DNA from: Phenylobacterium sp.
GTDB taxonomy: Bacteria; Pseudomonadota; Alphaproteobacteria; Caulobacterales; Caulobacteraceae
Assembly: GCF_016793225.1 (NCBI RefSeq)
Contig: NZ_JAEUMN010000034.1
Span: 1-38,107 of the forward strand
Direction: 5' to 3'
Length of the DNA: 38,107 nt
Part shown: in pieces, positions 5,556-26,089 of the stretch
How the letters are laid out: each line of letters opens with the position of its first letter
Numbering within the stretch: the stretch's first letter is position 1
Translations under genes and position numbers: made by a program
Notes under the pieces: model-generated
Database searches by the model: none
The model's input: only the letters and a program-made list of their open reading frames with translations
Told to the model about the DNA's origin: nothing

Positions 5556-5593
5556 CGGACTCGTTTTCTGATCGGCCGAAGCGGCAAGAGGCT

Positions 5594-5624
5594 TTGACCT
5601 ATCGCCCGGCGGTCCCTAGTTCAA
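5594..5624. promoter_or_regulatory. Superimposed divergent promoters for bamE and the bc1 chaperone gene
   Basis: On the plus strand TTGACC (5594-5599), 15 bases and CCTAGTTC (5615-5622) face the chaperone gene. On the minus strand TTGAAC (5624-5619), 15 bases and GATAGGTC (5603-5596) face bamE. Each resembles the Caulobacter housekeeping promoter (TTGaC, GCTAnAwC). The -35 of one overlaps the -10 of the other, making a near-palindrome (TTGACCTA and TAGTTCAA). Start sites would lie about 35-40 bases before each gene. Confidence 0.6.
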
Positions 5625-5667
5625 TGCCGCCTTTAGACCCACCTCTGGGGCGAAATCGAGGCTCGCC

Positions 5668-11411: not shown

Positions 11412-11454
11412 GAAAAACCCCCGCCCACCGCACGACACGCCCGCGGCCGCCTGT

Positions 11455-11490
11455 CAGCTTACCCGCGGCGGGTGGAGTTTCTTTGCGATT
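11455..11490 (-). promoter_or_regulatory. Island promoter P6 (aminotransferase)
   Basis: Read on the minus strand: AATCGCAAAGAAACT, 14 bases, TAAGCTG. The purine-rich block AGAAACT (11482-11476) and the -10-like TAAGCT (11461-11456) have the same spacing as five other promoters of the island. Weaker match than P1, P2 and P5. Confidence 0.45.
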
Positions 11491-11614
11491 TGCCCCCGAA
11501 GCGGCCAGCCGACGGGGGGCGCTATTCGTGGGCCTGTTCGTCCGCGCATAAGTCATGCTCGGCTGTCGATCGCGGCAGGCGCCTGCCGTCGCGGTCGCCG
11601 CGGCGACGGCGCAC

Positions 11615-11649
11615 AACGAAAGGAAAATCCGGGCGGTCGCCGCTAGGCT
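11615..11649 (+). promoter_or_regulatory. Island promoter P1 (S10 peptidase A)
   Basis: AACGAAAGGAAAAT (11615-11628), 14 bases, CTAGGCT (11643-11649). With the preceding G the -10 reads GCTAGGCT, close to the Caulobacter housekeeping -10. The predicted start of transcription lies about 20 bases before the ATG. Confidence 0.6.
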
Positions 11650-11674
11650 TCGCCGGGAGCTTCGGGGAAGGCGG

Positions 11675-13162
11675 ATGGAGAGACATGGGATGCGTGCGGC
11701 CGCGCTGAGCCTGCTGGCGATCATGGCGGCCATGGCGGCGGGCGGCGCCCAGGCCGCGGACGCTCCGGCGCCGCGGGTGGCGGTGACCCGGCACGAGGGC
11801 GTCTTCAACGGCCAGGCGCTGCGCTACACGGCCACGGTGGCCGAGACGGTGCTCGCCGACGCGCAGGGCCGGCCGGCCGCCATGGCCACCACGATCGCCT
11901 ACGTCCGCGACGGCGTGAAGGACCGCGCCCGGCGGCCGGTGATGTTCCTGTTCAACGGCGGGCCGGGGGCCTCATCGTCGCCCCTGCACATGAGCGCGCT
12001 GGGGCCCTACAGGCGTACGCCCGCGCCGCCTGGAGATCGCAGCGGAGGCGGCTGGGTCGCCAATGCGCACAGCCCGCTGGACGCCGTGGACCTGGTGTTC
12101 GTCGACCCGGTCGGCACGGGGTTCTCGCGGCCGCTGCCCGGCGTGGACGGCAAGCCGTTCTACTCGACCTCGGGCGACGCCCAGGCGGTGAAGACCGTGA
12201 TCCAGGCCTGGCTGAAGGCGCACGGGCGCGAGGGTTCGCCGCGGTTCCTCGCGGGCGAGAGCTATGGGACGACCCGGGCGGCCGCCATCGTCGGGATGTC
12301 GAAGGACCTGCCGTTCGACGGCGTGCTGCTGATCGCGCTGGCCGGCGAGGTTCCGGGTCGCGAGATGCCGTACGTCGTGGCGTTGCCGACCATGGCGGCG
12401 GGGGCCTGGCATCACCAGAAGATCGACCGGGCCGGGCGGACGGTGGACCAGGTGTTCGCCGAGGCCGTGCAGTTCGCCAGGACGGAGTACGTGACCGCCC
12501 TCATCCAGGGCGGAAGCCTGCCGGCGGCGGAGAAGCGCCGGATCGCGGAGAGGATGTCGGCGCTGGTGGGGCTGCCGGCCGCGCTGATCGAGGAAAAGAA
12601 CCTGCGGCTGTCCAAGAACGACTGGATGTTCAACATCCTGAAGGACCGTGCGCTGCGGACCGGCCTGCTGGACGTGACGGTGACCGCGCCGCTGGAGCCC
12701 GGGCAGGACGGGGCGATCGACGACCCGGCGCTGGGGGTCGTGCCGAAGCGGGCGGCGGGCGCGCCGGCTGGCCCGCCGCCCAGCCCGGAGGCCATCGGCC
12801 CGGTGCCGTCGCCCGTGGTGGGGCGCTACCTGACCGAGGTGCTGAAGTACCCGGCGACGGAGCCGTACTACGGCGTGAACTTCTCGGTGAACGCCGCCTG
12901 GATCCACGAGCGGCGCAGCAATCCCTACGAGGCGCTGGGGGCGGCGATGCAGGCCAATCCGGGGCTGCGGCTGTTCTGGGCGGCCGGCTACTACGACCTG
13001 ACGACGCCGGCCTACGCCGGGCGCTACGTGCTGGACCAGGCCGGGGTTCCCGCCGGTCAGTTGACGGCGGCCTACTTCGCCGGGCCGCACGGGGTGTACG
13101 ACGGGGACGCCAACCTCGCGCGCTTCAACGCGGCGGTGCGGGACTTCGTGACGAAGCGCTGA
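11675..13162 (+). CDS. Exported S10 serine carboxypeptidase-like protein A
   Basis: This 495-residue alpha/beta-hydrolase belongs to peptidase family S10. The oxyanion motif is FNGGPGASSS, the nucleophile Ser196 in GESYGT, the acid Asp441 in AAGYYDLTTP, and the base His472 in FAGPHGVYDG. The other three S10 proteins of the island have GHM at the histidine, so this copy is a variant. An Ala-rich signal peptide (cut near GAQA, about residue 27) sends it to the periplasm. I chose ATG 11675, behind GGGGAAGG; ATG 11690 would remove five residues. S10 enzymes remove C-terminal residues, usually at acid pH. The gene is a single unit behind an island-type promoter and ends facing S10 protein B. Confidence 0.88.
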   Translation: MERHGMRAAALSLLAIMAAMAAGGAQAADAPAPRVAVTRHEGVFNGQALRYTATVAETVLADAQGRPAAMATTIAYVRDGVKDRARRPVMFLFNGGPGASSSPLHMSALGPYRRTPAPPGDRSGGGWVANAHSPLDAVDLVFVDPVGTGFSRPLPGVDGKPFYSTSGDAQAVKTVIQAWLKAHGREGSPRFLAGESYGTTRAAAIVGMSKDLPFDGVLLIALAGEVPGREMPYVVALPTMAAGAWHHQKIDRAGRTVDQVFAEAVQFARTEYVTALIQGGSLPAAEKRRIAERMSALVGLPAALIEEKNLRLSKNDWMFNILKDRALRTGLLDVTVTAPLEPGQDGAIDDPALGVVPKRAAGAPAGPPPSPEAIGPVPSPVVGRYLTEVLKYPATEPYYGVNFSVNAAWIHERRSNPYEALGAAMQANPGLRLFWAAGYYDLTTPAYAGRYVLDQAGVPAGQLTAAYFAGPHGVYDGDANLARFNAAVRDFVTKR

Positions 13163-13309
13163 GGAGTTGGCTGGCGCGGCCGCGCCAGAACGAAGGAACC
13201 GCGAACCACACGAACATGCTGGTGCGGGCCGGGTGCGATGGAACGCCCGGACGTGGATCGTGGTCAAACGGCGCCTTCGGCGCGCGGGAGCCAGCGGAGA
13301 GCCGATGGG

Positions 13310-13381
13310 GGAGAGGGCAGGCCTCAGGCTCGGCGGATCGATCGTGCGCACCAAACGCAGTGGATGAGGCTCGCCCTCTCC
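13310..13381. repeat. Imperfect inverted repeat in a convergent gap
   Basis: GGAGAGGGCAGGCCTCA (13310-13326) pairs with TGAGGCTCGCCCTCTCC (13365-13381), with two mismatches in 17. It lies in the 302-base gap 13163-13464 between two converging peptidase genes. A second weak stem (CCCCCT at about 13421 with AGGGGG at about 13447) follows. Nothing else is visible in the gap apart from a CACGAAC scrap near 13210. It may serve as a bidirectional terminator or be a decayed repeat. Confidence 0.5.
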
Positions 13382-13464
13382 ACCACCCGCTCTACGGCAA
13401 GCGGCGTCGGCGTGCGGTCCCCCTCTCCGACTGCGTGGGAAAGGAAGGGGGCGGGGCCTCTGGC

Positions 13465-15063
13465 CTACTGCGTGGCGTCGCGGATCAGGGTGCGGACATC
13501 GTCGGCAAAGGCGCCGGCGGTGTCGCCGAGGTAGAGCATGTGGCCGGAGGCGTAGCGGCGCAGCATGACGCGGTCCCTGGGCAGTCCAGCCTGCTCGATG
13601 GCGTACTCGGCCGGGGCCGAGTGGGTGGAGAGGTCGTAGTAGCCCGACGCCACGAGCACGCGGAGCTTCTCGGTCCGGCGCATGGCGACGGCGAGGTCGG
13701 TGGCGAAGGACTGGCCGGGCGGCACGCCGCGGCGCTCCCAGTTCCAGGCGGGCAGCAGGTCGCGCCAGACGATGGCGCCGTAGGGCCGGTCCATGACGAC
13801 GCCGAGGTCGTCGGCGACCATCTGGTGGAAGGCGGCTATGAAGCCCGGGACGTAGCGCCCCATCGCCGGGTCGTCGGCGACCGGATCGGCGCCGGAACCG
13901 GCGAGCGGCAGGGTGTAGCGGCTGTCGTACACGCCCACCTGCAGGCCCCTGTCGGCGAGCAGGCGGCGGGCGAACTCGGCGTCCGGCACGACCAGGGACT
14001 TGTCGTAGGCGGACGCGGGCAGGCCGGTGTAGGCGGCGAGGCGGGCGCCGATCGCGGCGCGGTCGGCCGCGCCGAGCTGCCCGGCCTTGTCCTTCTGAAG
14101 CGCCTGGACGTAGTCGCCCCGGGCGAAGGCCACGACCTCCTGGTGGAAGTCCTCCAGGCTGCGACCCCTGCGGTCGATCTTCCCGTGATGCCACGCGGTG
14201 TCGGCCAAGGCGGGCAGGGCGAGGGCCTGGCGCATCTCGGCCGCGCCGGCTTCGCCCGAGGCGTTGCGGGCGCCGAGGGTCGTGCCCAGCAGGACGACGC
14301 CGTTCAGGGTGATCCCGCGCATGTAGCCCACGTAGAGCGGCCCACCCATCAGGGCCCGGGGCAGGACGGCGGCGCGGACCGAACCGTAGCTCTCGCCCAT
14401 CACGAACTTGGGCGCGTTCCAGCGCCGGTGCTCGGTCAGCCAGAGCTCGATGAACTGGGCCACGGCGTCGGCGTCCTCGTCCACACCCCAGAAATCGGCG
14501 TTGGTCCCCTTGCCGATCACCCGCGACCAGCCGGTCCCGACGGGATCGATGAAGACCAGGTCCGCCACGTCGAGGAGGCTGTGCGGGTTGTCGGCGAGGC
14601 CGAAGGGCGGGGTATTGGAGGGGTTCACCTCCTGGTCCAGCACCACGCGGCGGGGGCCGACGACGCCCATGTGCAGCCACAGAGACGACGAGCCGGGGCC
14701 GCCGTTGAAGACGAACATCACCGGGCGGCGGGGATCCGGCGGGCCGGCCTTGAGGTAGCTGAACGAGAAGATGGAGCCGATCGGCTCGGCGGCGCGGTTG
14801 TAGAGCCAGGTCTCGCCGGCGATCGCCGTGTAGGCGATGCGCTGCCCCTTCACGGTGATGGCGCGCTTGGAGACGAAGCGCTTCGGCGCGGGCAGGGGCT
14901 CGACCGGCCCCGGCGCCGTGGGCCGCGACATCGGGATCGAGAACGGCCCCGCGTTGGCGGGCGGCGCCGGCGGCGGGGCCTGGGCGAGGGCCGGGGCGGC
15001 GCACAGGAGAGCCGAGACGGCCAGCGCCGCGACGTCCCTGACCCCTGCGGGGAGGGGAGTCAT
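13465..15063 (-). CDS. Exported S10 serine carboxypeptidase-like protein B
   Basis: This 532-residue S10 family protein has FNGGPGSSSLWLHMG as oxyanion region, Ser225 in GESYGS, Asp477 in ASGYYDLSTHS and His508 in YASGHMLYLG. The triad is complete. A signal peptide (cut near APALAQ, residue 28) is followed by a Pro-rich linker of about 40 residues. Its ATG overlaps the stop codon of the upstream class V aminotransferase-like gene (ATGA), so the two proteins are translationally coupled. I infer that both act on the same peptide material in the periplasm. The gene ends facing S10 protein A across a 302-base gap. Confidence 0.9.
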   Translation of the reverse strand: MTPLPAGVRDVAALAVSALLCAAPALAQAPPPAPPANAGPFSIPMSRPTAPGPVEPLPAPKRFVSKRAITVKGQRIAYTAIAGETWLYNRAAEPIGSIFSFSYLKAGPPDPRRPVMFVFNGGPGSSSLWLHMGVVGPRRVVLDQEVNPSNTPPFGLADNPHSLLDVADLVFIDPVGTGWSRVIGKGTNADFWGVDEDADAVAQFIELWLTEHRRWNAPKFVMGESYGSVRAAVLPRALMGGPLYVGYMRGITLNGVVLLGTTLGARNASGEAGAAEMRQALALPALADTAWHHGKIDRRGRSLEDFHQEVVAFARGDYVQALQKDKAGQLGAADRAAIGARLAAYTGLPASAYDKSLVVPDAEFARRLLADRGLQVGVYDSRYTLPLAGSGADPVADDPAMGRYVPGFIAAFHQMVADDLGVVMDRPYGAIVWRDLLPAWNWERRGVPPGQSFATDLAVAMRRTEKLRVLVASGYYDLSTHSAPAEYAIEQAGLPRDRVMLRRYASGHMLYLGDTAGAFADDVRTLIRDATQ

Positions 15064-16292
15064 GCGGGCGGGGCCTTGGGCAGGACGGCCAGCAGCCGGT
15101 CGACGTCGTTCATGTCGTTGAACACGGAGAGCGAGACGCGGAAGCGGTTGGCGCTGACGGTCATGCGGATGTCGTTCTTCTGGAGCCGCTCGGCGAGCTT
15201 GGCGCGGGCGTCCTTCAGGGCGAAGGCGACGAGCGGCGTGCGGCTGTCCAGTGGGGTCATCGGCTGGTAGCCCCGACGGCGGAGCTCGGCCTGGATCGCG
15301 TCGGCCATGGGCTGGCGGTACGCCTGGATGTTGGCGACGCCGAGCTGGCGGATCCAGGCCAGGCTGTGCTCGAGCTGGACCACGCCGGTCCAGGAGGTGG
15401 TGCCCATGGCGAACTTGCCGCTGGCGCCCTCGGCGTAGCTGTAGTCGGAGACACGGTCGCCCGGCGGATCGAAGGGGAAGACGTGGGTGACGAACCGGCC
15501 GCCCACCTGGTGATAGCCCCACCAAGGCCGCGCGACCTTCTCCTGGATCTCCCGGCGCACGTAGAGGAACGCCAGGCCGAAGTCGCCCATCAGCCACTTG
15601 TAGGACGAGCAGGCGGCGAAATCGACGCCGGCGGCGCGCAGGTCCAGCGGCGTGGAGCCGGCGCCGTGCACGATGTCGGCGTAGACGTAGGCGCCGTGGG
15701 CGTGGGCGAGGTCGCAGACCGCCTTCAGGTCGTGCTCGAAGCCGTTGGTGGTGGAGACGTGGCTGACCGAGACCAGCTGCGTCCCGTCGTTCACCGCCGC
15801 GGCCATGGCGGCCATGTCGATGCGGCCCTCGGGCGTCATCGGCAGGGTGACCACGTCGACGCCGGCCTTGGCCAGTTCGCCGTAGGTGTAGAAGGACCCG
15901 AAGAAATGCAGCGCGTCGGTGACGATGCGCCCGCCGGCCTGCGGGAAGCCCAGGGCCGCCAGCACCAGGTTCTCGCCCATGGTGGTCGACTGGATCTGCA
16001 CCAGCTCGTCGGGCGCGGCGCCCACGAGCGCGCCGAAGCCGGCGAGCACCGCGGTCTCCTTGGCCCCCATGCTGTAGCCGGTCCAGGGGCCGTCGCGCGT
16101 CTTGAAGCGGAGGTACTCCTCGAGCGCGGCCCTGGCGCCCAGCGGCATGGGATGGGTCGAGCCGCTGTCGAGGTAGACGTACGGCATCTTCGCGAACGCC
16201 GAGCGCGCCGGCAGGGCGGCGGGCGGGGCGGCCGCGGCCAGGCCGGGGGTCGCCGCTGCGGCCGCGACGAGCGCTCTGCGGGTGAACTTCAT
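15060..16292 (-). CDS. Tat-exported class V aminotransferase-fold PLP enzyme
   Basis: This 410-residue PLP enzyme is of the class V fold, which includes cysteine desulfurases and isopenicillin N epimerase. The Schiff-base lysine is Lys232 in CSSYKWLMGDFG, the ring-holding Asp is in YADIVHGAG, and a His precedes in VSHVSTTNG. The N-terminus MKFTRRALVAAAAATPG is a Tat-type signal (TRRALVA, then an Ala stretch), so the enzyme seems to be folded with PLP in the cytoplasm and exported. Epimerase-like or lyase-like activity on a peptide is my inference. A desulfurase role is unlikely: the family's mobile catalytic cysteine loop is not evident. It heads an operon with S10 protein B, behind an island-type promoter. 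Confidence 0.85.
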   Translation of the reverse strand: MKFTRRALVAAAAATPGLAAAAPPAALPARSAFAKMPYVYLDSGSTHPMPLGARAALEEYLRFKTRDGPWTGYSMGAKETAVLAGFGALVGAAPDELVQIQSTTMGENLVLAALGFPQAGGRIVTDALHFFGSFYTYGELAKAGVDVVTLPMTPEGRIDMAAMAAAVNDGTQLVSVSHVSTTNGFEHDLKAVCDLAHAHGAYVYADIVHGAGSTPLDLRAAGVDFAACSSYKWLMGDFGLAFLYVRREIQEKVARPWWGYHQVGGRFVTHVFPFDPPGDRVSDYSYAEGASGKFAMGTTSWTGVVQLEHSLAWIRQLGVANIQAYRQPMADAIQAELRRRGYQPMTPLDSRTPLVAFALKDARAKLAERLQKNDIRMTVSANRFRVSLSVFNDMNDVDRLLAVLPKAPPA

Positions 16293-16313
16293 CGGAGCCC
16301 CTGACTTGCCCGG

Positions 16314-16350
16314 ATGCTAGCGCCGGCGGTGCGAATTTTCCTTTCGAACT
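16314..16350 (-). promoter_or_regulatory. Island promoter P2 (class V enzyme and S10 protein B)
   Basis: Read on the minus strand: TTCGAAAGGAAAAT, 14 bases, CTAGCAT (16320-16314); with the base before, GCTAGCAT. The block CGAAAGGAAAAT is identical to that of P1 on the other side of the peptidase pair. Transcription would begin about 15 bases before the ATG at 16292. Confidence 0.6.
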
Positions 16351-16392
16351 TGGCCGGGGCCCCTTGGGGCGTTGGATGATTTATCCAAGCGG

Positions 16393-16899
16393 TCAACGGA
16401 ACTGCCGCGCGGTCAGCGGCACGGCCATCGTGCTCTTCTGGGCCGACAGCGTGACGATGGAGCGCACGTCGATCACCCCCGGCAGCTTCAGCAGCACCGA
16501 GAAGATGAAGTCCTGGTACCAGGTCACGTCGGGGGCCAGGATCTTCATCATGGCGTCCATCTCGCCGAACACGGTCCAGCACTCGAGGATCTCGGGGATG
16601 CTGTTGATCGCCTTGTAGAAGTTGGCCCGTTCGGCCTCGGTGAGGGTGGTCATCTTCACCTGGGCGAAGATCTGCATCTTGAAGCCCAGCTTCTCGTGGT
16701 CGACCACCGCGACCACGGACTTGATGTAGCCCTCCTCGCGCAGCCGCTGGATGCGCCGCCAGCACGGCGACTGCGACAGGCCCACGCGCTCGGCCAGCTC
16801 GCCCGTCGAGAGCGAGGCGTCCTTCTGCATCAGGTCCAGGATCTTGATGTCGATGGCGTCGAGCGCCGCGGGAATAGCTGTGTCTTTGAACCGGGCCAT
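16393..16899 (-). CDS. Lrp/AsnC family transcriptional regulator
   Basis: This 168-residue protein has the Lrp/AsnC layout. The N-terminal winged helix is DAIDIKILDLMQKDASLSTGELAERVGLSQSPCWRRIQRLREEGYI with its recognition helix at SQSPCWRRIQRL. The C-terminal RAM domain, about residues 70-150, contains FAQVKMTTL, ILECWTVFGEMDAMMKI and the typical D-YQDFIFSVLLKLPGVIDVRS strand. The RAM domain binds amino acids as effector. It sits at the centre of the peptide island, divergent from the TonB receptor and 100 bases before the class V enzyme. I infer that it controls the island promoters. It has no ribosome binding site, and its promoter -10 lies almost at the ATG, so the message may be leaderless. 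Confidence 0.92.
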   Translation of the reverse strand: MARFKDTAIPAALDAIDIKILDLMQKDASLSTGELAERVGLSQSPCWRRIQRLREEGYIKSVVAVVDHEKLGFKMQIFAQVKMTTLTEAERANFYKAINSIPEILECWTVFGEMDAMMKILAPDVTWYQDFIFSVLLKLPGVIDVRSIVTLSAQKSTMAVPLTARQFR

Positions 16900-16902
16900 T
16901 CG

Positions 16903-16934
16903 CGCATAGCGGATGCGCCTTCGCCGCGAGTCAA
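16903..16934 (-). promoter_or_regulatory. Housekeeping-type promoter of the Lrp/AsnC gene
   Basis: On the minus strand TTGACT (16934-16929), 18 bases, GCTATGCG (16910-16903), then CGA and the ATG. GACTC (16932-16928), a GAnTC methylation site, overlaps the -35. The start of transcription would fall at or within a few bases of the start codon. Confidence 0.5.
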
Positions 16935-17042
16935 GGCGCGGACCGTTCGCCACGGCGCGCGACCCGGGCGCATTGGTCATTCGCGGCCGGCGAGGCGGCT
17001 GCATTATCAATCTGCGTCGCCGCGGTGACGGTCCGAAGAACG

Positions 17043-17073
17043 AAAAGAAAAACCGGGGCTCTGAAACTAGGGT
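17043..17073 (+). promoter_or_regulatory. Island promoter P5 (TonB-dependent receptor)
   Basis: AAAAGAAAAA (17043-17052), 14 bases, CTAGGGT (17067-17073). The full block starts AACGAAAAG, as in P1. The leader to the ATG at 17154 is about 75 bases, longer than for the other island promoters. Confidence 0.55.
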
Positions 17074-17153
17074 CTGGCCTTGCAGGACCTTGGCCGAAGA
17101 CATGCGGGAAGCGCAGCTTCTGCGCCGGGGTCCGCCGAAACCGGGGGATCACG

Positions 17154-20123
17154 ATGAGCGGCTTTTCCATTCGCAGGCGCATGCTGGGCTCGACCGTGCT
17201 GGCCGGCCTGGCGCTGATGGGGGCCGCGCCGGCCTTCGCCCAGGCCGCCCCAGACGGCGCCGAGGTGGGGGAGGTGGTCGTCACCGGCTCGCGCATCCGT
17301 CGGGCCGAGACCGAGACGCCGGCGCCGGTCGCCGTCGTCGACGCCCAGACCCTGACCGACCGCGGCTTCGTCCAGCCCGGCCAGGCGCTGAACCAGATCA
17401 CCTCCAACATCCCGTCGTTCCCGCAGGCGGCCGGCAACGGCTCGGCGGCCGGCAGCGGGCAGCAGTATCCGAACCTGTTCGGCCTGGGCCCCGGCCGCAC
17501 GCTGACCCTGGTCAACGGCCGCCGGATGGTCACCTCGTCGTCGGGGCAGTTCAACATCAACGCGCCCGGACAGGGCGACCGGGTGGTGGACACCAACATC
17601 ATCCCCGCGGGCCTGCTCGAGCGCATCGACGTCGTGCAGGCGGGCGGCGCGGCGGTCTACGGCTCGGACGCCATCGCCGGCGTGATCAACTATGTGCTGA
17701 GGGACGACTTCGAGGGCGTCGAGCTGGACGCTCAGTACGGGGAATCCAGCCGCGGCGACTATCCGGTGACCAGCCTGCGCGGCACGTTCGGGAAGAACCT
17801 GTTGAGCGGGCGCGCCAATGTGGCGCTGGACCTGGAGTACTCCAAGACGCGGCCGCTCTACGACTACGACCGACCGCGCTCGAACCTGGGCCGGGTGACG
17901 GTGGCCAACACCGCCAACACGTCCGGCTCGGACGGCATCCCGGCGGTGCGCGAGAACCTGAACTCGCGCTTCACCAGCTTCAACTACAACGGCCTGCTGT
18001 TCTCGCCGGCCGCGGCGCCGCTCACCAACTTCATCCTGGCCATCGGCGGCGTCCCGCAGCAGTTCAACGCCACGGGCACGGCGCTGGTCCCCTACAGCAT
18101 CGGCACGCCGGGCGGCATTCCGTTTTCGTCGGGCGGCGACGGGCTGCCCTACCAGGAGCTGGCCTCGCTGTACGTCGGCGTGACGCGGTTCAACGCCAAC
18201 TTCCTGGGCCACTACGACATCACCGACAACATCCGCCTGTCGGCGGAGGTGGGCTGGGCGCACGTGCGCAGCCGCGACCCCTACCAGAACCTGCAGTCGA
18301 ACACGGTGCTCAACAACGCCGCCAGCGGCGCAGGCGCGATCCCGATCGCGCGGAGCAACCCGTTCCTGGACCCGGTGCGCGCGCAGGTGGCCCCGGGCGG
18401 CCCGCCGCTGTTCCTGTCCAAGGCGTGGAGCGATATCCTCTATTCCCGCGAGGGCAATCTCGAGACGGACACGGCCCGCGTGGTGCTGGCCCTGGACGGC
18501 GACTTCAGCCTGGGCGAGCGCAACTTCTACTGGAGCCTCTCGGCCAGCCACGCCGAGACCGACGGCGCCCAGCGCGGCTACGCGGTCTGGCAGACGCGCT
18601 TCAACAACGCGCTGCAGGCCGTGCGCACCGCCACCGGCCAGATCGTCTGCGGCATCAACGCCGACGCCAACCCGAACAACAACGACCCGAACTGCACGCC
18701 CATCAACCCGTTCGGCCAGGGCAATGTGACCCAGGAGGCGCGCAACTACGTCAACCTGCTGGTCGGCCAGGACTACCTCAACACCCAGGACGACTACCTG
18801 GCGACCCTGGGCGGCGACGTGCTCGAGCTGCCGGCGGGCAAGGTGAAGTTCAGCGTGGCCTACGAGCACCGCCGCGAGAAGGCGAAGTTCGTGCCGCTGA
18901 CGGCCAACCAGCTGGGGCTGACCGGCTCGCAGGTGCCGCAGGCGGCGACCGGCGGACGCTTCCACACCGACGAGCTGTCGGGCGAGCTGCTGATCCCCGT
19001 GCTGGGCGGCGACTTCACCCTGCCGTTCGCCAAGATGGTCGAGCTGGACGGCTCGTACCGCTACGTGGACAACTCGCTGGCGGGCAAGGAAGACGTCTGG
19101 GGCGTCGGCGGCCGATGGGAGATCGTGACCGGCTTCACGGCCCGGATCTCGCGCAGCCGCAACTTCCGGGCGCCGACGCTGGACCAGCAGTTCGCCCCGG
19201 TGCGGACGGCGCTGAACAACGCGGGCCAGGACCCGTGCGACTTCCGCTACATCGCCAACGGGCCGGCGCCGGCGACGCGCCGGGCCAACTGCGTGGCGCT
19301 GTTCGCGGCCAACCCGGGCTACGGGCCCCTCGCGACCTTCCAGAACTCGTCGTCGAACTTCTCGACGGCGCTGGTGACGTCGGGCGGCAATCCGAACCTC
19401 GACAACGAGATCTCCAACACCCTGACCTACGGGGTGGTGCTGCAGCCCGAGTTGATCCCGGGCCTCACCATCGTGGCGGACCGCATCGAGGTGGACCTGA
19501 AGGACGGCCTTTCGCCGTTCACGCCGGTCAACTTCCTGGAGACCTGCTTCGACGCCTCGCCGCAGCCGGCGGACGTGTGCGCGACCTTCACGCGTGACGC
19601 GGCCGGCAACGTGGTCACCGCGCGGCAGACGACCTTCAATGCCGGCAAGGTCACGTACCGGGGCGAGACCTACAACATCAACTACGTCTTCCCGGTGGGC
19701 CGCTTCTTCGGCGACGCCGACTACGGCGACATGGAGCTGAACCTGTCGCTGACCCACACGTCCAAGCTGGTGACCTCGGTCACGGGCTTCGACCGTTCGC
19801 GGACCGACAACACGGTGGCCCAGCCCGACTGGGTGGGGACCTTCGACGCGCGCTACCGCCGCGGGCCGCTGCGCCTGACCTACCAGATGATCTACCTGGA
19901 CAAGGTGGCCCTGGCCCAGAACGCCTCGATCGAGTCGACGCCGACGCCGGTCATCGACGAGAACATCCGGCACAACGTCTCGGCGGCCTACACCTTCCTG
20001 GACCGCTACACGGTGCGCGCCGGCGTCACCAACCTGACGGACGAGGACCCGTCGTTCCCCACCCGCAACTACGGCGACATCCTGGGCCGGCAGTTCTTCG
20101 TGGGCCTGAACGCCAAGTTCTAG
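17154..20123 (+). CDS. TonB-dependent outer membrane receptor
   Basis: This 989-residue protein is a TonB-dependent receptor of the large Caulobacter/sphingomonad type. The signal peptide ends near APAFAQA. A TonB-box-like EVGEVVVTGSRIRR (about residues 35-50) comes next, then the plug domain with LNQITSNIPSF, RTLTLVNGRRMV and QAGGAAVYGSDAIAGVINYVL. The barrel ends in GRQFFVGLNAKF with a terminal aromatic residue for BAM insertion. One or two cysteine pairs (for example IVCGINADANPNNNDPNCTP) suggest disulfides in loops. No siderophore gene is near; the neighbours point to peptides as cargo, which is inferred. I chose ATG 17154, behind GGGGGATC. Confidence 0.95.
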   Translation: MSGFSIRRRMLGSTVLAGLALMGAAPAFAQAAPDGAEVGEVVVTGSRIRRAETETPAPVAVVDAQTLTDRGFVQPGQALNQITSNIPSFPQAAGNGSAAGSGQQYPNLFGLGPGRTLTLVNGRRMVTSSSGQFNINAPGQGDRVVDTNIIPAGLLERIDVVQAGGAAVYGSDAIAGVINYVLRDDFEGVELDAQYGESSRGDYPVTSLRGTFGKNLLSGRANVALDLEYSKTRPLYDYDRPRSNLGRVTVANTANTSGSDGIPAVRENLNSRFTSFNYNGLLFSPAAAPLTNFILAIGGVPQQFNATGTALVPYSIGTPGGIPFSSGGDGLPYQELASLYVGVTRFNANFLGHYDITDNIRLSAEVGWAHVRSRDPYQNLQSNTVLNNAASGAGAIPIARSNPFLDPVRAQVAPGGPPLFLSKAWSDILYSREGNLETDTARVVLALDGDFSLGERNFYWSLSASHAETDGAQRGYAVWQTRFNNALQAVRTATGQIVCGINADANPNNNDPNCTPINPFGQGNVTQEARNYVNLLVGQDYLNTQDDYLATLGGDVLELPAGKVKFSVAYEHRREKAKFVPLTANQLGLTGSQVPQAATGGRFHTDELSGELLIPVLGGDFTLPFAKMVELDGSYRYVDNSLAGKEDVWGVGGRWEIVTGFTARISRSRNFRAPTLDQQFAPVRTALNNAGQDPCDFRYIANGPAPATRRANCVALFAANPGYGPLATFQNSSSNFSTALVTSGGNPNLDNEISNTLTYGVVLQPELIPGLTIVADRIEVDLKDGLSPFTPVNFLETCFDASPQPADVCATFTRDAAGNVVTARQTTFNAGKVTYRGETYNINYVFPVGRFFGDADYGDMELNLSLTHTSKLVTSVTGFDRSRTDNTVAQPDWVGTFDARYRRGPLRLTYQMIYLDKVALAQNASIESTPTPVIDENIRHNVSAAYTFLDRYTVRAGVTNLTDEDPSFPTRNYGDILGRQFFVGLNAKF

Positions 20124-20128
20124 AACGT

Positions 20129-20188
20129 CGCGGTCCAGGATATCGGACCGCGCCTCCGCCGCGGCGGCCGCCAGAGGGCCGCCGCGGC
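20129..20188 (+). other. Two GC-rich hairpins between receptor and downstream gene
   Basis: CGCGGTCC pairs with GGACCGCG (20129-20136 and 20145-20152), and GCCGCGGCGGCC pairs with GGCCGCCGCGGC (20158-20169 and 20177-20188) around a 7-base loop. Both stems are perfect. No T tract follows. They start 6 bases after the receptor stop codon and could stabilise its message or reduce read-through into the next gene. Confidence 0.6.
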
Positions 20189-20279
20189 CCCCACATCCGG
20201 CTCTTGCCGGTCGGCCGCGCCGGCCCGACGCTGCGCGCGGCGCGGGTCCCCGCGCCGAGGTCCAGGCACGGAGGAGCGC

Positions 20280-21221
20280 TTGCGCATCATCGATCGGGAC
20301 GAGGTGGCCCGGAAGCTCACCTACGAGCTCTGCATCCCGCTCGTCCGGGAGGCGATGATCGCCTTCTCGAAGGGCGTCACACGCCAGCACCTCCGTTCGA
20401 TCCTGCCGCTGGGGCCGAAGGGGGTGTTCGGGATCATGCCGGGCGCGCTGGGCGAGGGCGCGATGTTCGGCGCCAAGCTGATCAGCGTCTACCCGGGCAA
20501 CTTCGCCAAGGGCGTCCAGTCGCACCAGGGCGTGGTGGTGCTGTTCGACGGCGAGACCGGCGCGCCGGTCTGCGTGGCGCACGCCGGCGAGATCACGGCG
20601 ATCCGGACGGCGGCGGCGAGCGCGGTGGCGACGGACGCGCTGGCCCGGCCCGAGGCGGCCGCGATGGCGATCCTGGGCTACGGCGAGCAGGCGACGACGC
20701 ACGCGCGCGCGATCGCGAAGGTGCGCCGGCTGTCGAAGATCGCCGTGTGGGGCCGCGACGCCGGGCGGGCGACGGCTTTCGCGGCCAGGATGGGCGCGGA
20801 ACTGGGCCTTCCGGTCGCCGCGGCCGACAGCGTCGAGGCCGCCGTGGCGGACGCCGACATCATCACGGCGGTGACCAATGCGCGCGAACCGATCCTGCGC
20901 GGCGCCTGGGTGGCGCCGGGCGCGCACGTGAACCTGGTGGGCTCCAGCGGTCCCGGGCCGACGGAGGTCGACCACGACCTGGTGGTCCGTTCGCGCTTCA
21001 TCGCCGACAGCCGCGAGGGCGTTCTCGCCCAGGGCGCCGAGTTCCTCTACGCCAAGGCCGCGGGCCTGGTGGGCGACGATCACGTGGTGGGCGAGATCGG
21101 CCAGGTGCTGGCGGGCGACCTGCCGGGACGCCAGTCCGCCGACCAGATCACGGTCTACAAGTCGCTGGGTCACGTGGTGCAGGACCTCGCGGCCGCCAAG
21201 GCGCTCTACGAGGCGGGCTGA
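20280..21221 (+). CDS. Ornithine cyclodeaminase / mu-crystallin family protein
   Basis: This 313-residue protein belongs to the ornithine cyclodeaminase/mu-crystallin family. Members either cyclise ornithine to proline or reduce cyclic imines such as pyrroline-2-carboxylate. The nucleotide-binding loop AILGYGEQATTHARAI (about residues 125-140) and the following AVWGRD strand are clear. GPGPTEVDHDLV and GEIGQVLAGDLPGRQ near the C-terminus are family signatures. Translation starts at a TTG behind a perfect GGAGGA. No signal peptide is seen, so it is cytosolic. No island-type promoter precedes it; it probably depends on read-through from the receptor gene across two hairpins. It joins the next gene in a TGATG overlap. 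A role in proline-like amino-acid catabolism is plausible, not proven. Confidence 0.9.
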   Translation: MRIIDRDEVARKLTYELCIPLVREAMIAFSKGVTRQHLRSILPLGPKGVFGIMPGALGEGAMFGAKLISVYPGNFAKGVQSHQGVVVLFDGETGAPVCVAHAGEITAIRTAAASAVATDALARPEAAAMAILGYGEQATTHARAIAKVRRLSKIAVWGRDAGRATAFAARMGAELGLPVAAADSVEAAVADADIITAVTNAREPILRGAWVAPGAHVNLVGSSGPGPTEVDHDLVVRSRFIADSREGVLAQGAEFLYAKAAGLVGDDHVVGEIGQVLAGDLPGRQSADQITVYKSLGHVVQDLAAAKALYEAG

Positions 21222-22927
21222 TGCGCGGGTTCTGCCTCGTGTTGTCGATGGCGCTGGCCGTGGCGCTCGGCCCTGCGCCCGCGGCCGCCGCCGCGGAGCC
21301 GGAGCTTCGGGTCGTGCTGAAGCCCGGGGGGATCGACGCGGCGGCCGGCCGGGCGTTCGTCGAGGTCCGGCTGACCATCCCCGACGTCGACGTTCCGGCG
21401 GGCGCGCCGCTGCTGACGCTGCCCCTGGTGATCGCGAACACCGACACCGTGGCGGCGACCCTGACGGAGCTGAAGGTCACGGACGCCGCGAGCGAGGTCC
21501 CGCTGAGCGTGAAGGACGACCCCGTCGCGATCGCCTACTCGCGCCGCTGGTTGGCCGGGCGGGCGGTGAAGGGGGACGTGACCGTGACCTACCGGGCGCC
21601 GGTGGACAACACGCCGCCCCGGAGGGGCTCGGGACCGCCGTACGGCCTGCGCACCGAGGGCGGCGGCGTCTCGGGCGTGGGCAACACCTTCATCCTGCTG
21701 CCCGAGGGCGGGACGGCCTATCGGGTGGCGCTGTCCTGGGACCTGAGCGGGATGCCGGCCGGCTCGACCGCGATGTCGAGCCTGGGCGACGGCGACGTCA
21801 CGCTGCCCGCGGGGCCGGCCGAGCGGCTCCACCGCACCCTGTTCATGGCCGGACCCATGCGGCGCGCGCCGGCGAACGTGACGGCGACCGGCTTCTCCGC
21901 CGCCTGGCTGGGCGACCCGCCGTTCGACCCGCGGCCGCTGATGGAATGGGCGTCGCGCCTGCACGGCTGGATGAGCGGCTTCTTCCAGGACCCGGAGACC
22001 CCGCCTTACCGGGTCGTCCTGCGCTACAACCCCATCAACGCCGGCGGCGGCGCGGCGCTGACCAACTCGTTCCTGCTGACCTGGGGCGAGACGGCCAAGG
22101 ACCCCGAGGCGCTGAAGGGGACCCTAGCGCACGAGATGATCCACACCTGGACCGCCTCGGGCCTTGGCGGCCAGTGGTACGGCGAGGGGATCGCGGTGCA
22201 CTACCAGGCGCTGTTGCCGATGCGCGCCGGCATGCTGACGCCCGAACAGTACCTGGACGACATCAACGACACGGCCCGGCGCTACTACACCAATGCGCTG
22301 AACGACACGCCGGACGCCGAGATCGCCGCGCGGTTCTGGGAGGACACCCGGATCCGTACGCTGCCGTACGACCGGGGCGCGATGTACTTCGCCGTGCTGG
22401 ACGGGAAGATCCGGCGGGCCAGCCAGGGCCGGCGATCGCTGGACGACCTGATCCGCGAGATGGTCCGGCGACGCCGCGCGGGCGAGACCGTGCCCGAGAG
22501 CGGCTGGGTCGAGCTGCTGGCGCGGGAGCTGGGCGAGGAGGGACGCCGCGTGCACGCGGACATGCTGGCGGGCCGGCTGATGCTGCCCGAGAGCGGCGAC
22601 TTCGGTCCCTGCTTCAGCCGCACGACGGGCAGGTTCCGGCGCTTCGACCTGGGCTTCGACCCCCGCTCGCTGGTGGGGGACGTGAAGACCATCCGGGGCC
22701 TGGTCCCGGGCTCGGAAGCCGCCAAGGCCGGACTTCAGGACGGCGACGTCGTCACCTACTCGGTCGCCATGGACAGCGTGCAGGGCGACCAGGCGCGGAT
22801 GCTGACGCTGCGCGTGACCCGCGCGGGCCGGACATTCCCGGTGACCTACCTGCCGCGCGGCGAGACCGTGGACGCCTGGCAATGGACGCGGGTCCCGGGC
22901 GTGCCCGACGCCAGATGCGCGACCTGA
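21221..22927 (+). CDS. Exported M61-like gluzincin peptidase with C-terminal PDZ, copy 1
   Basis: This 568-residue zinc peptidase has HEMIH (His304, Glu305, His308) and, 13 residues on, the third ligand Glu322 in WYGEGIAVHY. The layout of a beta-rich N-terminal half, a thermolysin-like core and a C-terminal PDZ domain (GLVPGSEAAKAGLQDGDVV, about residues 490-510) matches family M61 glycyl aminopeptidases, although the spacing to the third ligand is shorter than in the classical members. A Sec signal peptide (cut near AAAA, about residue 25) sends it to the periplasm. Cys464 and Cys566 are matched in the second copy and may form a disulfide. It starts at the stop codon of the preceding gene (TGATG) and ends 24 bases from the converging S10 protein C. 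Confidence 0.82.
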   Translation: MRGFCLVLSMALAVALGPAPAAAAAEPELRVVLKPGGIDAAAGRAFVEVRLTIPDVDVPAGAPLLTLPLVIANTDTVAATLTELKVTDAASEVPLSVKDDPVAIAYSRRWLAGRAVKGDVTVTYRAPVDNTPPRRGSGPPYGLRTEGGGVSGVGNTFILLPEGGTAYRVALSWDLSGMPAGSTAMSSLGDGDVTLPAGPAERLHRTLFMAGPMRRAPANVTATGFSAAWLGDPPFDPRPLMEWASRLHGWMSGFFQDPETPPYRVVLRYNPINAGGGAALTNSFLLTWGETAKDPEALKGTLAHEMIHTWTASGLGGQWYGEGIAVHYQALLPMRAGMLTPEQYLDDINDTARRYYTNALNDTPDAEIAARFWEDTRIRTLPYDRGAMYFAVLDGKIRRASQGRRSLDDLIREMVRRRRAGETVPESGWVELLARELGEEGRRVHADMLAGRLMLPESGDFGPCFSRTTGRFRRFDLGFDPRSLVGDVKTIRGLVPGSEAAKAGLQDGDVVTYSVAMDSVQGDQARMLTLRVTRAGRTFPVTYLPRGETVDAWQWTRVPGVPDARCAT

Positions 22928-22951
22928 GACGGCTCTGGGGGCGCCGATGGA

Positions 22952-24406
22952 TCAGCGCAGGGTCCCGCTCACCAGGGCGCGGATGTCGCGGCTGAAGCGC
23001 GCGCGGGTTTCGGCGTCGCGGTACATCATGTGACCCCCGGGATAGCAGCGGAACGTCATGGCGGGCTTCAGGGGCGCGGGGAGGCGGCGCGCGGTCTCCG
23101 CGTCGCCGGCGCAGTTCGCGAGGCTGTCGTACAGGCCCGAGGCCACGAGCACCCTGAGCCTCGGATTCAGCGCCACGGCCTCGGCCGTGCCGGGCAGGGG
23201 CGGGCCGAGCTTCGGCGGGCCGGCTCCCGTGCGGACGGCCTCTGCGAAGGCCTTCTCGCGCGCCTCGGGGGTGACCGGGCCGGTGGCGTAGTCCCAGCGC
23301 GCGCCGACGCCGGGCGGGGGCTTGCCGTCCGGGCCAGGCGGCTCGGCCTCGAGGCCCACGTACGGCAGGTCGGTGCGATACCCGAGGTCGCCGCGCAGGT
23401 AGCGCAGGATGGCGTCCGTGGCGCGGTCGGACGGCTCGTCGACGCGGCGCATGTCGAAGACGTTCAGCGGCCTGTCGCCGCCGAGCGCGGTGCGGAACTG
23501 CCGCGGCGTCAGCATCAGCGTGCGGCGATCGACCTGGTCCGCCGGCACGCCGGTGAGGCGCGCCAACCCCGCCGCGATGCGCTCGCGCTCGTCGGGGTCC
23601 AGCTGCTCGCGCCGGGCCAGCGCCGGCCCGTAGGTGTCGCGGGCCCACCGCCCGGCGGCGCGGCGGACGGCGTCGGGCGTGCGTCCGACGTCCGGGGCAA
23701 GCCGGCCGTGATGGAAGGCGGTCACCGCGTATCCCACGACCCTCAGGTGGTCGAGCGGCGGGTCGGCGGCGCCGCGGGCGAGCCCGGTTCCGCCGGAGAT
23801 CAGCCCCAGGCCGTTGACCCGGACGCCCCGCGCCAGCAGGGCCTGGCCGACGTTGGCGGCGCGGCCTGCGCCCCAGCTCTCGCCGATCAGGTAGAGCGGG
23901 TTGGCCTCGGCGGCTTGCTGCGCGCGCCAGGCGCGGACGAACTCGGTCACCGACGCCACGTCGCCCAAGGTGCCGTAGAACCCCTGGGCGTACTCGGGGC
24001 GGGCCGCGCGGCTGAAGCCCGTGCCGATGGGATCGACGAAGACCAGATCGGCGTGGGTCAGCCAGGTGTCGGCGTTGTCGACGAGGCGGCCGACTTCGCC
24101 CCGCTTCGGGCCGGCGACCTCGAAGTGCAGCGTGGCCGAGTTGGCGCCGGGGCCGCCGTTCCAGACGAAGGCGAGGGGGCGGGGCTTCGACGAGGGGACC
24201 CGGTAGGCGATGTAGAACATCCAGCCCCTGGTCTCGCCCGTTCCCGGGTCGCGGATGGCGATGCGGCCGGCCTCGGCCGTGTAGGCGAGCGGCCGGCCGG
24301 CGATGGTGATGGCGTGGCGCGTGACCACAGGGGCCTCGGCCGCCGGCTGGGCGACGGCGGACGCGGCGGCGGTCGCCAGGACCGCGGCGGCGAGCAGGGC
24401 CCTCAC
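22952..24406 (-). CDS. Exported S10 serine carboxypeptidase-like protein C
   Basis: This 484-residue S10 family protein shows WNGGPGANSATLHFE, the nucleophile Ser177 in GESWGAG (Trp instead of the usual Tyr), Asp427 in ASGLYDSLANC and His459 in YPGGHMMYRD. The signal peptide is VRALLAAAVLATAAASAVA. I chose GTG 24406, one base after the stop of the upstream gene, since it starts the signal peptide cleanly; an ATG at 24436 would overlap the upstream gene by 29 bases. It is the second gene of a two-gene operon with S10 protein D. The Tyr-to-Trp change and the cysteine after the catalytic Asp set it apart from its paralogues and suggest a different substrate. Confidence 0.88.
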   Translation of the reverse strand: MRALLAAAVLATAAASAVAQPAAEAPVVTRHAITIAGRPLAYTAEAGRIAIRDPGTGETRGWMFYIAYRVPSSKPRPLAFVWNGGPGANSATLHFEVAGPKRGEVGRLVDNADTWLTHADLVFVDPIGTGFSRAARPEYAQGFYGTLGDVASVTEFVRAWRAQQAAEANPLYLIGESWGAGRAANVGQALLARGVRVNGLGLISGGTGLARGAADPPLDHLRVVGYAVTAFHHGRLAPDVGRTPDAVRRAAGRWARDTYGPALARREQLDPDERERIAAGLARLTGVPADQVDRRTLMLTPRQFRTALGGDRPLNVFDMRRVDEPSDRATDAILRYLRGDLGYRTDLPYVGLEAEPPGPDGKPPPGVGARWDYATGPVTPEAREKAFAEAVRTGAGPPKLGPPLPGTAEAVALNPRLRVLVASGLYDSLANCAGDAETARRLPAPLKPAMTFRCYPGGHMMYRDAETRARFSRDIRALVSGTLR

Positions 24407-24407
24407 C

Positions 24408-25895
24408 TCAGAGCGCCTGGGGCGCGAACCGCCCACCGGTGATCCAGCTGCGGATGTCGCCGGTGAACGCCTTCAGCGACGGCTCGTGCGTGTAGGCCAT
24501 GTGGCCGCCCACGTACTGGCGCTGGATCACGCGTTCGCGCGGCCAGTCGCTCTTGGTCACGAGGTAGCGGGCCGGGCCGACCGTGGTCGTCAGGTCGTAG
24601 ATGCCGGTGCCGATCATGAGCCGGAACTTCGGATCGGCCGCGAAGGCGGGGCCGATGCGCGCCTGGTAGTCGTAGTCCAGGAAGGGGCCGCCCGGCCCCA
24701 GCGTGCCGTTCCAGGCCCAGCCGCTCGTCTCCGGCGCCTGGGCCCGGTAGTCCGAAGCCGGCCAGGCGACGCCGAGGTCCCGGTAGTGCGCCAGCATGGA
24801 GGGCTCGACCGCGGCGGTCACCGGGCCGAAGGGGTCGGCCACGCGCTGCCCGGCCGGCGCGGGACCCACGTAGCGGGCGTCGTACATGCCCAGCACCTGG
24901 CCGGGGAGAAGCTCGCGCAGGAAGGCGATCTTGGTGATCTGGAGGTCGTTCCGCAGGTAGTAGTCGGCGCTGACGCCGGTCATCGCCTGAAGCTTCGCGG
25001 CCACCTCGCGGCGCCTGGCGGCGGGCAGGTCGTGGCCCTGCAGGAGGGCCTGCAGGTATTCGCTCATGCCCCAGGCGTAGGCGGCGTCCACCACGGCGCC
25101 CATGGACCGGCCTTTCCAGGCCGGCGCCCGGCCGTGGTAGGCGGCGACGGCGGCCAGCGCCGTGAGATTGGTGGCGTAGGCCAGGGCGTTCTTCGCGCGC
25201 TGGCTGGTCTCGATCATGTTGACGGCCTGGCCGAAGAGGAAGACGCCGGAGAGCGGCATCACCTTGGCCAGCTGGCCGGCCATGAGGGCCGCGCGAAGGG
25301 TGCCGTAGCTCTCGCCCAGCACGAACTTCGGCGAGGCCTCGCGGCCGTTCGTCCGGATCCAGGCCGCCACGAAGTCGGAGACCGACTGGGCGTCGCCCTC
25401 GACCGAGTACACACGCGACCGGTCGCCGCCGGGCAGCAGGCGCGAGAAGCCGGTCTCGGCCGGGTCGACGAACACCAGGTCGGCCACGTCGAGCACCGTC
25501 TCCGTGTTGTCGACGAGGCCGCCGGCAGTGGGGACCTTGGGATCCTGGGAGACCACGAGCCGTCGGGGGCCCAGAGCCATCATGTGCAGGGTGGCGGACG
25601 AGCTGGACGGGCCGCCGTTGAAGGCGAACAGCACCGGACGGGTGGCGGGGTCGGCGCCGGCCTTCACATAGGACGTGCAGACGAAGCGCACGCCGGGCCG
25701 GCCGTCGGCGGCCGCGACGACCGTCTCTCCGACCGTGGCGGTGAAGTCGACCTTCCGTCCGTTGAAGACGCCCGAATGCGTGCTTACGAACGGGCCGCCG
25801 GCGCCCGGGAGGGTCTCGGCGGCCTTCGCCGCGCCCGCGGCCGCCACGGCGAGGCCGCCGGCGCCCAGCAGCTCGCGCTTGGTGATCCCGGCCAT
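24408..25895 (-). CDS. Exported S10 serine carboxypeptidase-like protein D
   Basis: This 495-residue S10 family protein has FNGGPSSSSATLHMM (Ser replaces Gly in the oxyanion loop), Ser196 in GESYGT, Asp434 in GTGIYDLTTT and His465 in YVGGHMAYTH. The N-terminus MAGITKRELLGAGGLAVAAAG has a KR pair before the hydrophobic stretch. It looks like a Tat signal with lysine in place of the first arginine, so export may be by either route. The ATG at 25895 follows AGGGGGCGG. It heads the operon with S10 protein C and is preceded by an island-type promoter. It diverges from the amidohydrolase unit, 218 bases away. Confidence 0.88.
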   Translation of the reverse strand: MAGITKRELLGAGGLAVAAAGAAKAAETLPGAGGPFVSTHSGVFNGRKVDFTATVGETVVAAADGRPGVRFVCTSYVKAGADPATRPVLFAFNGGPSSSSATLHMMALGPRRLVVSQDPKVPTAGGLVDNTETVLDVADLVFVDPAETGFSRLLPGGDRSRVYSVEGDAQSVSDFVAAWIRTNGREASPKFVLGESYGTLRAALMAGQLAKVMPLSGVFLFGQAVNMIETSQRAKNALAYATNLTALAAVAAYHGRAPAWKGRSMGAVVDAAYAWGMSEYLQALLQGHDLPAARRREVAAKLQAMTGVSADYYLRNDLQITKIAFLRELLPGQVLGMYDARYVGPAPAGQRVADPFGPVTAAVEPSMLAHYRDLGVAWPASDYRAQAPETSGWAWNGTLGPGGPFLDYDYQARIGPAFAADPKFRLMIGTGIYDLTTTVGPARYLVTKSDWPRERVIQRQYVGGHMAYTHEPSLKAFTGDIRSWITGGRFAPQAL

Positions 25896-25924
25896 ATCCG
25901 CCCCCTGGTTTCCGTCGCCGGGGA

Positions 25925-25962
25925 AGGCTAGCCCGGGGCCGCCGGATAATCTTTTCCTTCTG
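25925..25962 (-). promoter_or_regulatory. Island promoter P3 (S10 proteins D and C)
   Basis: On the minus strand CCAGAAGGAAAAGATTAT, 14 bases, CTAGCCT (25931-25925), read with the preceding G as GCTAGCCT. The AAGGAAAA string is present, but the base-for-base alignment puts AGATTAT at the conserved spacing, so the block is shifted by five bases relative to P1 and P2. Confidence 0.45.
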
Positions 25963-26055
25963 GCGGCGCGGCCCAATTCCCGCGGCATAGGCTATGCCGA
26001 CGGCGCTTCCGGTCCCGCATTGATCTTGTCGCCCGCGACGGCGCTCGCCAGCAGT

Positions 26056-26089
26056 TCGAATAGAAAATCCCGACGCCGAAGGTACGATG
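26056..26089 (+). promoter_or_regulatory. Island promoter P4 (amidohydrolase, M61 copy 2, permease)
   Basis: TCGAATAGAAAAT (26056-26068), 14 bases, TACGATG (26083-26089). The -10 lacks the CTAG core of P1, P2, P3 and P5, but position and upstream block match. The distance to the ATG at 26114 is 24 bases, as in P1. Confidence 0.45.

Follow-up and report, generated by a model that had tools for sequence, protein, structure and literature searches.

The window analysed here is a complete 38,107-base contig (NZ_JAEUMN010000034.1, C115) of the draft genome of a Phenylobacterium sp., which comprises 4.6 Mb in 197 contigs. An island at approximately 10.2–33.7 kb of the window contains 14 genes annotated by Pfam and NCBIfam scans, among them peptidases, a TonB-dependent receptor, and a regulator of the Lrp/AsnC family. 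Six transcription units of the island are preceded by promoters, P1 to P6, which had been recognized in an earlier sequence-only reading by a purine-rich block and a shared -10 box. The main feature of these promoters was overlooked in that reading: a palindrome resembling GCATAnnnnATGC is positioned 61 or 91–92 base pairs (bp) upstream of the -10 box TAnnnT at each of them. The six promoters probably constitute the regulon of the island's own Lrp/AsnC protein, which is predicted to activate all six from a set of sites in helical phase, the nearest of which replaces the -35 box, and to repress its own gene.

The six blocks and -10-like strings of the sequence-only reading were all found at the coordinates given there, separated by the 14-base gap that it had reported. 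Its -10 strings begin at CTA in P1, P2, P3, and P5 but at TA in P4 and P6. Measured to the TA, the gap is 15 bases in four promoters and 14 in two, with the center of the block 20 or 19 bp before the -10 box, respectively. The -10 box reads TAnnnT in all six promoters, with CTA in four and GCTA in three, and none of the six has a TTG-type -35 box. In P1–P4 the -10 box ends 21–29 bases from the start codon, in agreement with the distance of about 20–30 bases previously given for four promoters; in P5 it ends 80 bases before the start codon. The contrast that had been drawn to housekeeping promoters also holds by eye, with TTGCCC (tRNA-Pro), TTGAAC (bamE), and TTGACC (bc1) at -35, where bamE and bc1 are the names used in the earlier reading. 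Promoters of Caulobacter RpoD have the -35 sequence TTGaCgS and the -10 sequence GCtANAWC, according to excerpts of a published study (PMC8144410).

The offset of a palindrome was measured from its center to the first T of the -10 box. It is 92 bp for P1, 91 bp for P6, 61 bp for P2 and P3, and 92 bp for P4, and P5 has palindromes at both 92 and 61 bp. The divergent pairs P1/P6 and P3/P4 each use common palindromes. Palindromes with at least seven of eight half-site letters occur at four of 1,889 intergenic positions of the window versus one of 21,564 coding positions, a contrast that is weaker in some distant loci. The sequence GCATAnnnnATGC is present at eight places in the whole genome, three of which are in the window, all between genes. 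On both sides of the copies at P1/P6 and P3/P4, a TAnnnT is located 61, 91, or 92 bp away. The third copy is the site before the regulator gene, lrp, and has no TAnnnT at those distances, as is expected if this site acts on lrp itself. The five copies elsewhere in the genome all lack TAnnnT at 61, 91, or 92 bp, and four of the five are within coding-like frames. The palindrome TTCGAAGAACGAA, located approximately 30 bp before the -10 box of P5, was considered as a further site and dropped, as P4 lacks it (by eye).

The palindromes at 61 and 92 bp are the stronger predicted operators, and the purine block would be the weakest site. The interpretation of the block as a degenerate operator copy over the -35 position, centered 19–20 bp upstream of the -10 box, is the least certain step of the argument. 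When the promoters are scored with a matrix trained solely on the distal palindromes, the mean is high at three offsets, 61, 92, and 20. In a composition-preserving shuffle test, the six blocks of the window have p values of 0.0005–0.047 (combined 4e-8), and 26 of the 32 promoters tested have p < 0.05. Alternatively, a second regulator could recognize the A-rich block and leave only the distal palindromes to Lrp, which would account for the asymmetry of the block and its weak palindrome score in several promoters. However, the matrix that peaks at offset 20 is derived from the distal sites, three Sphingomonad S10c promoters have a site starting with GCATA at the same offset, and the Lrp/AsnC protein is the sole DNA-binding regulator recognized among the 14 island genes. 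A second regulator therefore appears unlikely. The shared palindrome array, together with a block that matches the palindrome weakly in the place of the -35 box, speaks for the earlier suggestion of one regulon in which a regulator site replaces the -35.

Exact matches to GAAAA-N15-CTAG number three in the 4.6 Mb genome, all of them in the window (P1, P2, and P5), and the reversed pattern has seven. A promoter model was built from the sequences of 17 promoters of relatives (loci L004, L005, L006, L007, and L013), with the window excluded. The model matches the genome at 41 places with E up to 10, and the top six are the promoters of the earlier reading, with scores of 58.8 (P5), 54.4 (P4), 46.7 (P3), 39.8 (P2), 37.6 (P1), and 36.3 bits (P6) and E values of 2.4e-15 to 2.4e-8. 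The seventh match has 16.8 bits and an E value of 0.03. Occurrence at background frequency, which was to count against the regulon, was not indicated by the searches of the genome with the exact pattern and with the model. Because the genome search partly measures orthology, a test leaving out one promoter type at a time was run in the window. The raw ranks of P1–P6 are 2, 9, 5, 4, 6, and 6 among 75,984 positions, and P2 becomes sixth when three 1-bp shifts of true sites ranked above it are disregarded. With the block and -10 box alone, the ranks are 1, 6, 6, 5, 6, and 6; for P1/P6 and P3/P4 only these two elements are independent, because each pair shares its distal palindromes. Matches had been anticipated before TonB receptors and peptidases. 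The strong matches do precede genes of the island, but not TonB receptors in general. A regulon comprising TonB receptors at large was rejected, given the absence of any other strong match in the genome and the chance-level palindromes in 67 receptor loci that lack the island Lrp.

The closest matches of the TonB-dependent receptor are in Phenylobacterium assemblies (86, 85, and 63 percent identity) and in an unclassified alphaproteobacterial assembly (84 percent; named collection). From 79 receptor-related loci that were fetched, 12 with approximately 50 percent receptor identity or more were examined. All 12, from Phenylobacterium, Asticcacaulis, Sphingomonas, Novosphingobium, and Hyphomonas, encode an Lrp of 57–90 percent identity. 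Relatives of the island are present in the Caulobacterales, the Sphingomonadales, to which Sphingomonas and Novosphingobium belong, and the Hyphomonadales. In alignments of the loci, the block, -10 box, and palindromes are conserved within changing sequence. Palindrome matches accompanied by an A-rich block are at 60–61 or 91–93 bp in 22 of 24 cases from 13 loci and in 51 of 54 cases from 30 loci chosen by lrp alone (58 of 86 if the block is not required). Removal of the repeated loci (the window, L004, L005, L006, and L013) leaves 25 lrp loci with 44 of 47 matches at these distances. The receptor promoters of Asticcacaulis have kept the offsets of 61 and 92 bp in all three loci, with half-sites that have drifted to GAATA...ATT.

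A genus survey of 101 genomes employed promoter matches with E up to 1e-4 and stricter filters, and Lrp matches with E up to 1e-50. Both promoters and Lrp are present in 32 genomes, Lrp only in one, promoters only in none, and neither in 68 (Fisher p 1.6e-25, uncorrected for relatedness). If the five genomes from which training promoters had been taken are left out, the counts are 27, 1, 0, and 68 (p 5e-23, likewise uncorrected). The contig that carries lrp contains 110 of the 126 promoter matches, all within 27 kb; the remaining 16 are on other contigs, many of them from fragmented assemblies. Strict palindromes number 16 in the 12 loci with the island Lrp, versus 1.0 expected from base composition, and seven in the 67 related-receptor loci without it, versus 6.3 expected. 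In the Lrp-only genome (G066; L160, 6217–6714), the Lrp is 64 percent identical and the palindrome GCATCCGCGATGC is positioned just before its start, but the 13 kb of sequence read around lrp contain none of the island genes. The co-occurrence with the promoters, the palindrome over the predicted -10 box of lrp, and the chance-level palindromes in loci without the gene favor the Lrp/AsnC protein, which had been proposed as the nearest candidate, as the regulator.

Several observations weigh against this assignment. Co-occurrence alone cannot single out Lrp, because the island genes travel together, and the related genomes in the count are not independent. L010 and L060 have no strict palindromes, though they belong to the 12 Lrp-bearing loci, and at seven of eight letters L060 has nine coding palindromes and no intergenic one. 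Upstream palindromes lie at 94, 104, and 103 bp in the S10c promoters of L010, L011, and L020, and at 51 bp for the M61 gene of L020; the -10 boxes of the receptor promoters of the same three loci were picked after the distances had been seen. The site at offset 20 is weak, and six of the 32 promoters fail the shuffle test at 0.05 (P5_L005, P5_L013, P4_L013, T_L008, T_L010, and T_L011).

The Lrp/AsnC protein matches PF13412 (71.8 bits), PF13404 (64 bits), and PF01037 (58.4 bits), all above cut-off, which indicates an N-terminal AsnC-type helix-turn-helix (HTH) and a C-terminal ligand domain (RAM). The cut-offs of the NCBIfam equivalogs Lrp, AsnC, LysM, LrpA, and ChrS are not reached, the best score being 104.6 of 233 bits for Lrp. 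By these matches, the protein is a member of the Lrp/AsnC family and not an orthologue of Lrp, AsnC, LysM, LrpA, or ChrS. Its nearest solved relatives by sequence are E. coli Lrp (2gqq, E 5.6e-25) and an AsnC-family protein (3i4p, E 3.4e-26), both aligned across the HTH and ligand domain. A second copy of lrp, with 73–75 percent identity to the query, is located approximately 4–6 kb from the first in genomes G024, G041, G049, G060, G070, and G072.

The promoter of lrp was read in the 30 loci that were obtained for the 33 genomes with the gene. All 30 have a TTG-type -35 box (28 TTGA, one TTGG, and one TTGT) and a GCATCCGCTATGC-type palindrome, with exact half-sites in 29, whose center is 24 bp downstream of the first T of the -35 box and thus over the predicted -10 box. 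As judged from these elements, the layout is that of autorepression, the opposite of that of the six targets. Local Lrp proteins such as PA2577 can repress divergent genes (excerpts of PMC8707732), and Lrp might similarly repress the six units, with the block being merely a poor or A-rich -35 box. Such repression is very unlikely, because the strong sites are far upstream, at 61 and 92 bp, rather than over the -10 box or start, the -35 of the six promoters is not TTGAC, and at lrp, where a palindrome does cover the -10 box, the -35 box is good. Activation is proposed because of the position of the sites and the missing -35 box.

Boxes of the GGAAAA type at -35 resemble promoters of the FecI or extracytoplasmic function (ECF) type. 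A special sigma factor, which the sequence-only reading had offered as its second possibility, was considered first because of the GGAAAA-type block. An ECF-type sigma factor would read the GAAAAnCC block as the -35 and a CTAnnGT-like sequence as the -10, and the palindromes would be unrelated. The block is indeed well conserved (CGAAAAGAAAAnCCG), and the -10 box of some relatives reads CCTACCGTT, which resembles ECF -10 boxes with CGT. However, TAnnnT is kept in all six promoters and CGT is not (TAGGCT, TAGCAT, and TACGAT), the palindromes at fixed helical distances are left unexplained, and no sigma domain was detected by Pfam in the 14 annotated island genes, to which the search for sigma genes was confined. 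The special sigma factor was dropped for these reasons, and we regard it as very unlikely.

Activation by the island Lrp could proceed as follows. Lrp dimers, in an octamer or similar assembly, would bind the palindromes along a single face of the DNA and bend or wrap it, the spacings of 31 and 41 bp amounting to about three and four helical turns. If the -10 box starts at -12, the sites would be near -32, -73, and -104. Of these, the one near -32, which is weak, would occupy the -35 place of sigma, so that the regulator would hold main-sigma RNA polymerase at TAnnnT. At lrp, the regulator would cover the -10 box behind a good -35 box and thereby repress itself. The effector might, as a guess, be an amino acid, dipeptide, or small peptide released by the island peptidases. 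We infer the binding, the direction of control, and the start sites from the arrangement of these elements.

E. coli Lrp regulates genes globally, and its sites are degenerate and AT-rich. Unlike those, the sites described here read GCATA...TATGC and are confined to the island. Clustered, helically phased imperfect palindromes are a trait of Lrp/AsnC targets, and they are present here at offsets 19–20, 61, and 91–92. According to excerpts of a published account (PMC2995911), operators of the Lrp family tend to be degenerate and are difficult to recognize by sequence, and the regulators occupy groups of imperfect palindromes spaced by two or three helical turns, wrap the DNA, and activate from a constrained position adjacent to the promoter. 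Ss-LrpB of Sulfolobus and other archaeal Lrp activators, with approximately 100 bp wrapped on three dimers, share with the system described here the palindrome clusters, the use of one DNA face, and autoregulation, as far as the same excerpts describe them. By contrast, these regulators work with the archaeal transcription machinery, whereas in the island a bacterial -35 position is under the nearest predicted site, the site sequence is different, and the sites at 61 and 92 bp are alternative or joint. As in the island, the genes of BkdR, PutR, MdeR, and PA2577 adjoin and diverge from their targets, BkdR is linked to amino-acid-type metabolism, and many Lrp/AsnC homologues have similar sequences with a periodicity of 30–31 bp in target promoters (excerpts of PMC8707732). 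The four regulators act on a neighboring unit, and PA2577 binds broadly, as described in these excerpts, whereas in the island one geometry is common to six units within 16 kb.

It is plausible, though slightly short of probable, that the protein represents a new subgroup of Lrp proteins whose operator code is readable. In this code, a weak operator at offset 20 would replace the -35 box, strong operators would be on a helical lattice at 61 and/or 92 bp, and the Lrp assembly would take over the recognition of the -35 from polymerase. The code would be kept in Phenylobacterium and in Asticcacaulis receptor genes, be traceable in the Sphingomonadales, and be able to take in an unlinked gene, such as one of genome G043. 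The probable target set, operator sequence, and promoter geometry of one local regulator can here be read from sequence, with about thirty related genomes as replicates. The system may provide a test bed for activation by an Lrp assembly without a -35 box, and it names a candidate regulator and boundaries for an island of peptide uptake and peptidases. Among the open-licence papers listed by the literature searches, no title or start of an abstract concerned this island or regulon.

The possible unlinked member is on contig C10 of G043 (L161, minus strand), where the promoter model matches near 2278–2200 with 30.7 bits (E 1.4e-6). The match includes a palindrome 60 bp upstream of TATCAT and directly precedes a gene (873–2186) for an amidohydrolase (PF01979, 130.9 bits) with a signal-like leader. 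The contig is not that of the island of the same genome; the assembly is a metagenome assembly, in which a binning error is possible. L004 seems to derive from G043. In G040, contig C7 (L162) contains a divergent pair of S10a and PLP-enzyme genes with a common palindrome at 92 and 91 bp, on a different contig from lrp, and this pair may be controlled at a distance from lrp.

The annotated genes of the island encode a class I/II pyridoxal phosphate (PLP) enzyme, four S10 carboxypeptidase-like proteins, a class-V aminotransferase-fold protein, the Lrp/AsnC regulator, a 989-residue TonB-dependent receptor, an ornithine-cyclodeaminase family protein, two M61-like proteins, an amidohydrolase, an amino acid permease, and an M1 peptidase (Table 1). 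Two further frames inside the island stretch gave no match in the Pfam scan and are out of frame.

Table 1 Genes, promoter elements, and palindromes of the island, with positions in the window
Feature	Position	Strand	Remarks
P6 target, PLP enzyme, aminotransferase class I/II	10236..11438	-	Pfam; true start uncertain
P6 -10 TAAGCT	11456..11461	-	
P6 block CGCAAAGAAACTCCA	11473..11487	-	center 19 bp before -10
Palindrome GCATAAGTCATGC	11546..11558		common to P1 (92 bp) and P6 (91 bp); conserved in L004
P1 block CGAAAGGAAAATCCG	11617..11631	+	palindrome-like; center 20 bp before -10
P1 -10 TAGGCT	11644..11649	+	
P1 target, S10 serine carboxypeptidase-like	11675..13162	+	Pfam
S10 peptidase	about 13465-15050	-	downstream of P2 target
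P2 target, class-V aminotransferase-fold protein	15060..16292	-	RR-type leader (by eye)
P2 -10 TAGCAT	16314..16319	-	
P2 block CGAAAGGAAAATTCG	16332..16346	-	
P2 palindrome GGATAAATCATCC	16374..16386		61 bp upstream of -10; conserved in L004, L005, L006, L013
lrp, Lrp/AsnC-family regulator, 168 residues	16393..16899	-	proposed regulator; Pfam HTH_24, HTH_AsnC-type, AsnC_trans_reg
Putative lrp autoregulatory palindrome GCATCCGCTATGC (minus strand)	16904..16916		center 11 bp before lrp ATG, over predicted -10
lrp -35 TTGACT	16929..16934	-	TTGACA in most relatives
P5 distal palindrome GCATTGGTCATTC	16970..16982		92 bp upstream of -10
P5 second palindrome GCATTATCAATCT	17001..17013		61 bp upstream of -10
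P5 block CGAAAAGAAAAACCG	17041..17055	+	
P5 -10 TAGGGT	17068..17073	+	
P5 target, TonB-dependent receptor	17154..20123	+	Pfam
Ornithine-cyclodeaminase family gene	20280-21221		after P5 receptor
M61-like gene	to 22927		after ornithine-cyclodeaminase family gene
P3 target, two S10 peptidase-like genes	22952..25895	-	Pfam
P3 -10 TAGCCT	25925..25930	-	
P3 block GGAAAAGATTATCCG	25943..25957	-	
Palindrome GCATAGGCTATGC	25985..25997		common to P3 (61 bp) and P4 (92 bp)
Weaker second palindrome GCATTGATCTTGT	26017..26029		common to P4 (60 bp) and P3 (93 bp); in L004, L006; stronger in L013
P4 block CGAATAGAAAATCCC	26057..26071	+	
P4 -10 TACGAT	26083..26088	+	
P4 target, amidohydrolase	26114..28141	+	signal-like leader (by eye)
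M61-like, amino acid permease, and M1 genes			downstream of P4 amidohydrolase

The best NCBIfam matches of the ornithine-cyclodeaminase family gene and of the P4 amidohydrolase, both below cut-off, are pyrroline/piperideine-2-carboxylate reductase and Caulobacter Xaa-Pro dipeptidase, respectively. Proline-type or cyclic amino acid peptides may, from these two matches, be substrates of the island. The PLP enzyme that is the P6 target has its best NCBIfam matches, also below cut-off, to the arginine-cyclising PLP enzymes GntC and capreomycidine synthase VioD, which are odd in a catabolic island. Outside the island, the bamE and bc1 chaperone genes are divergent, and their TTGAnC promoters overlap face-to-face at 5556–5667 of the window (by eye).

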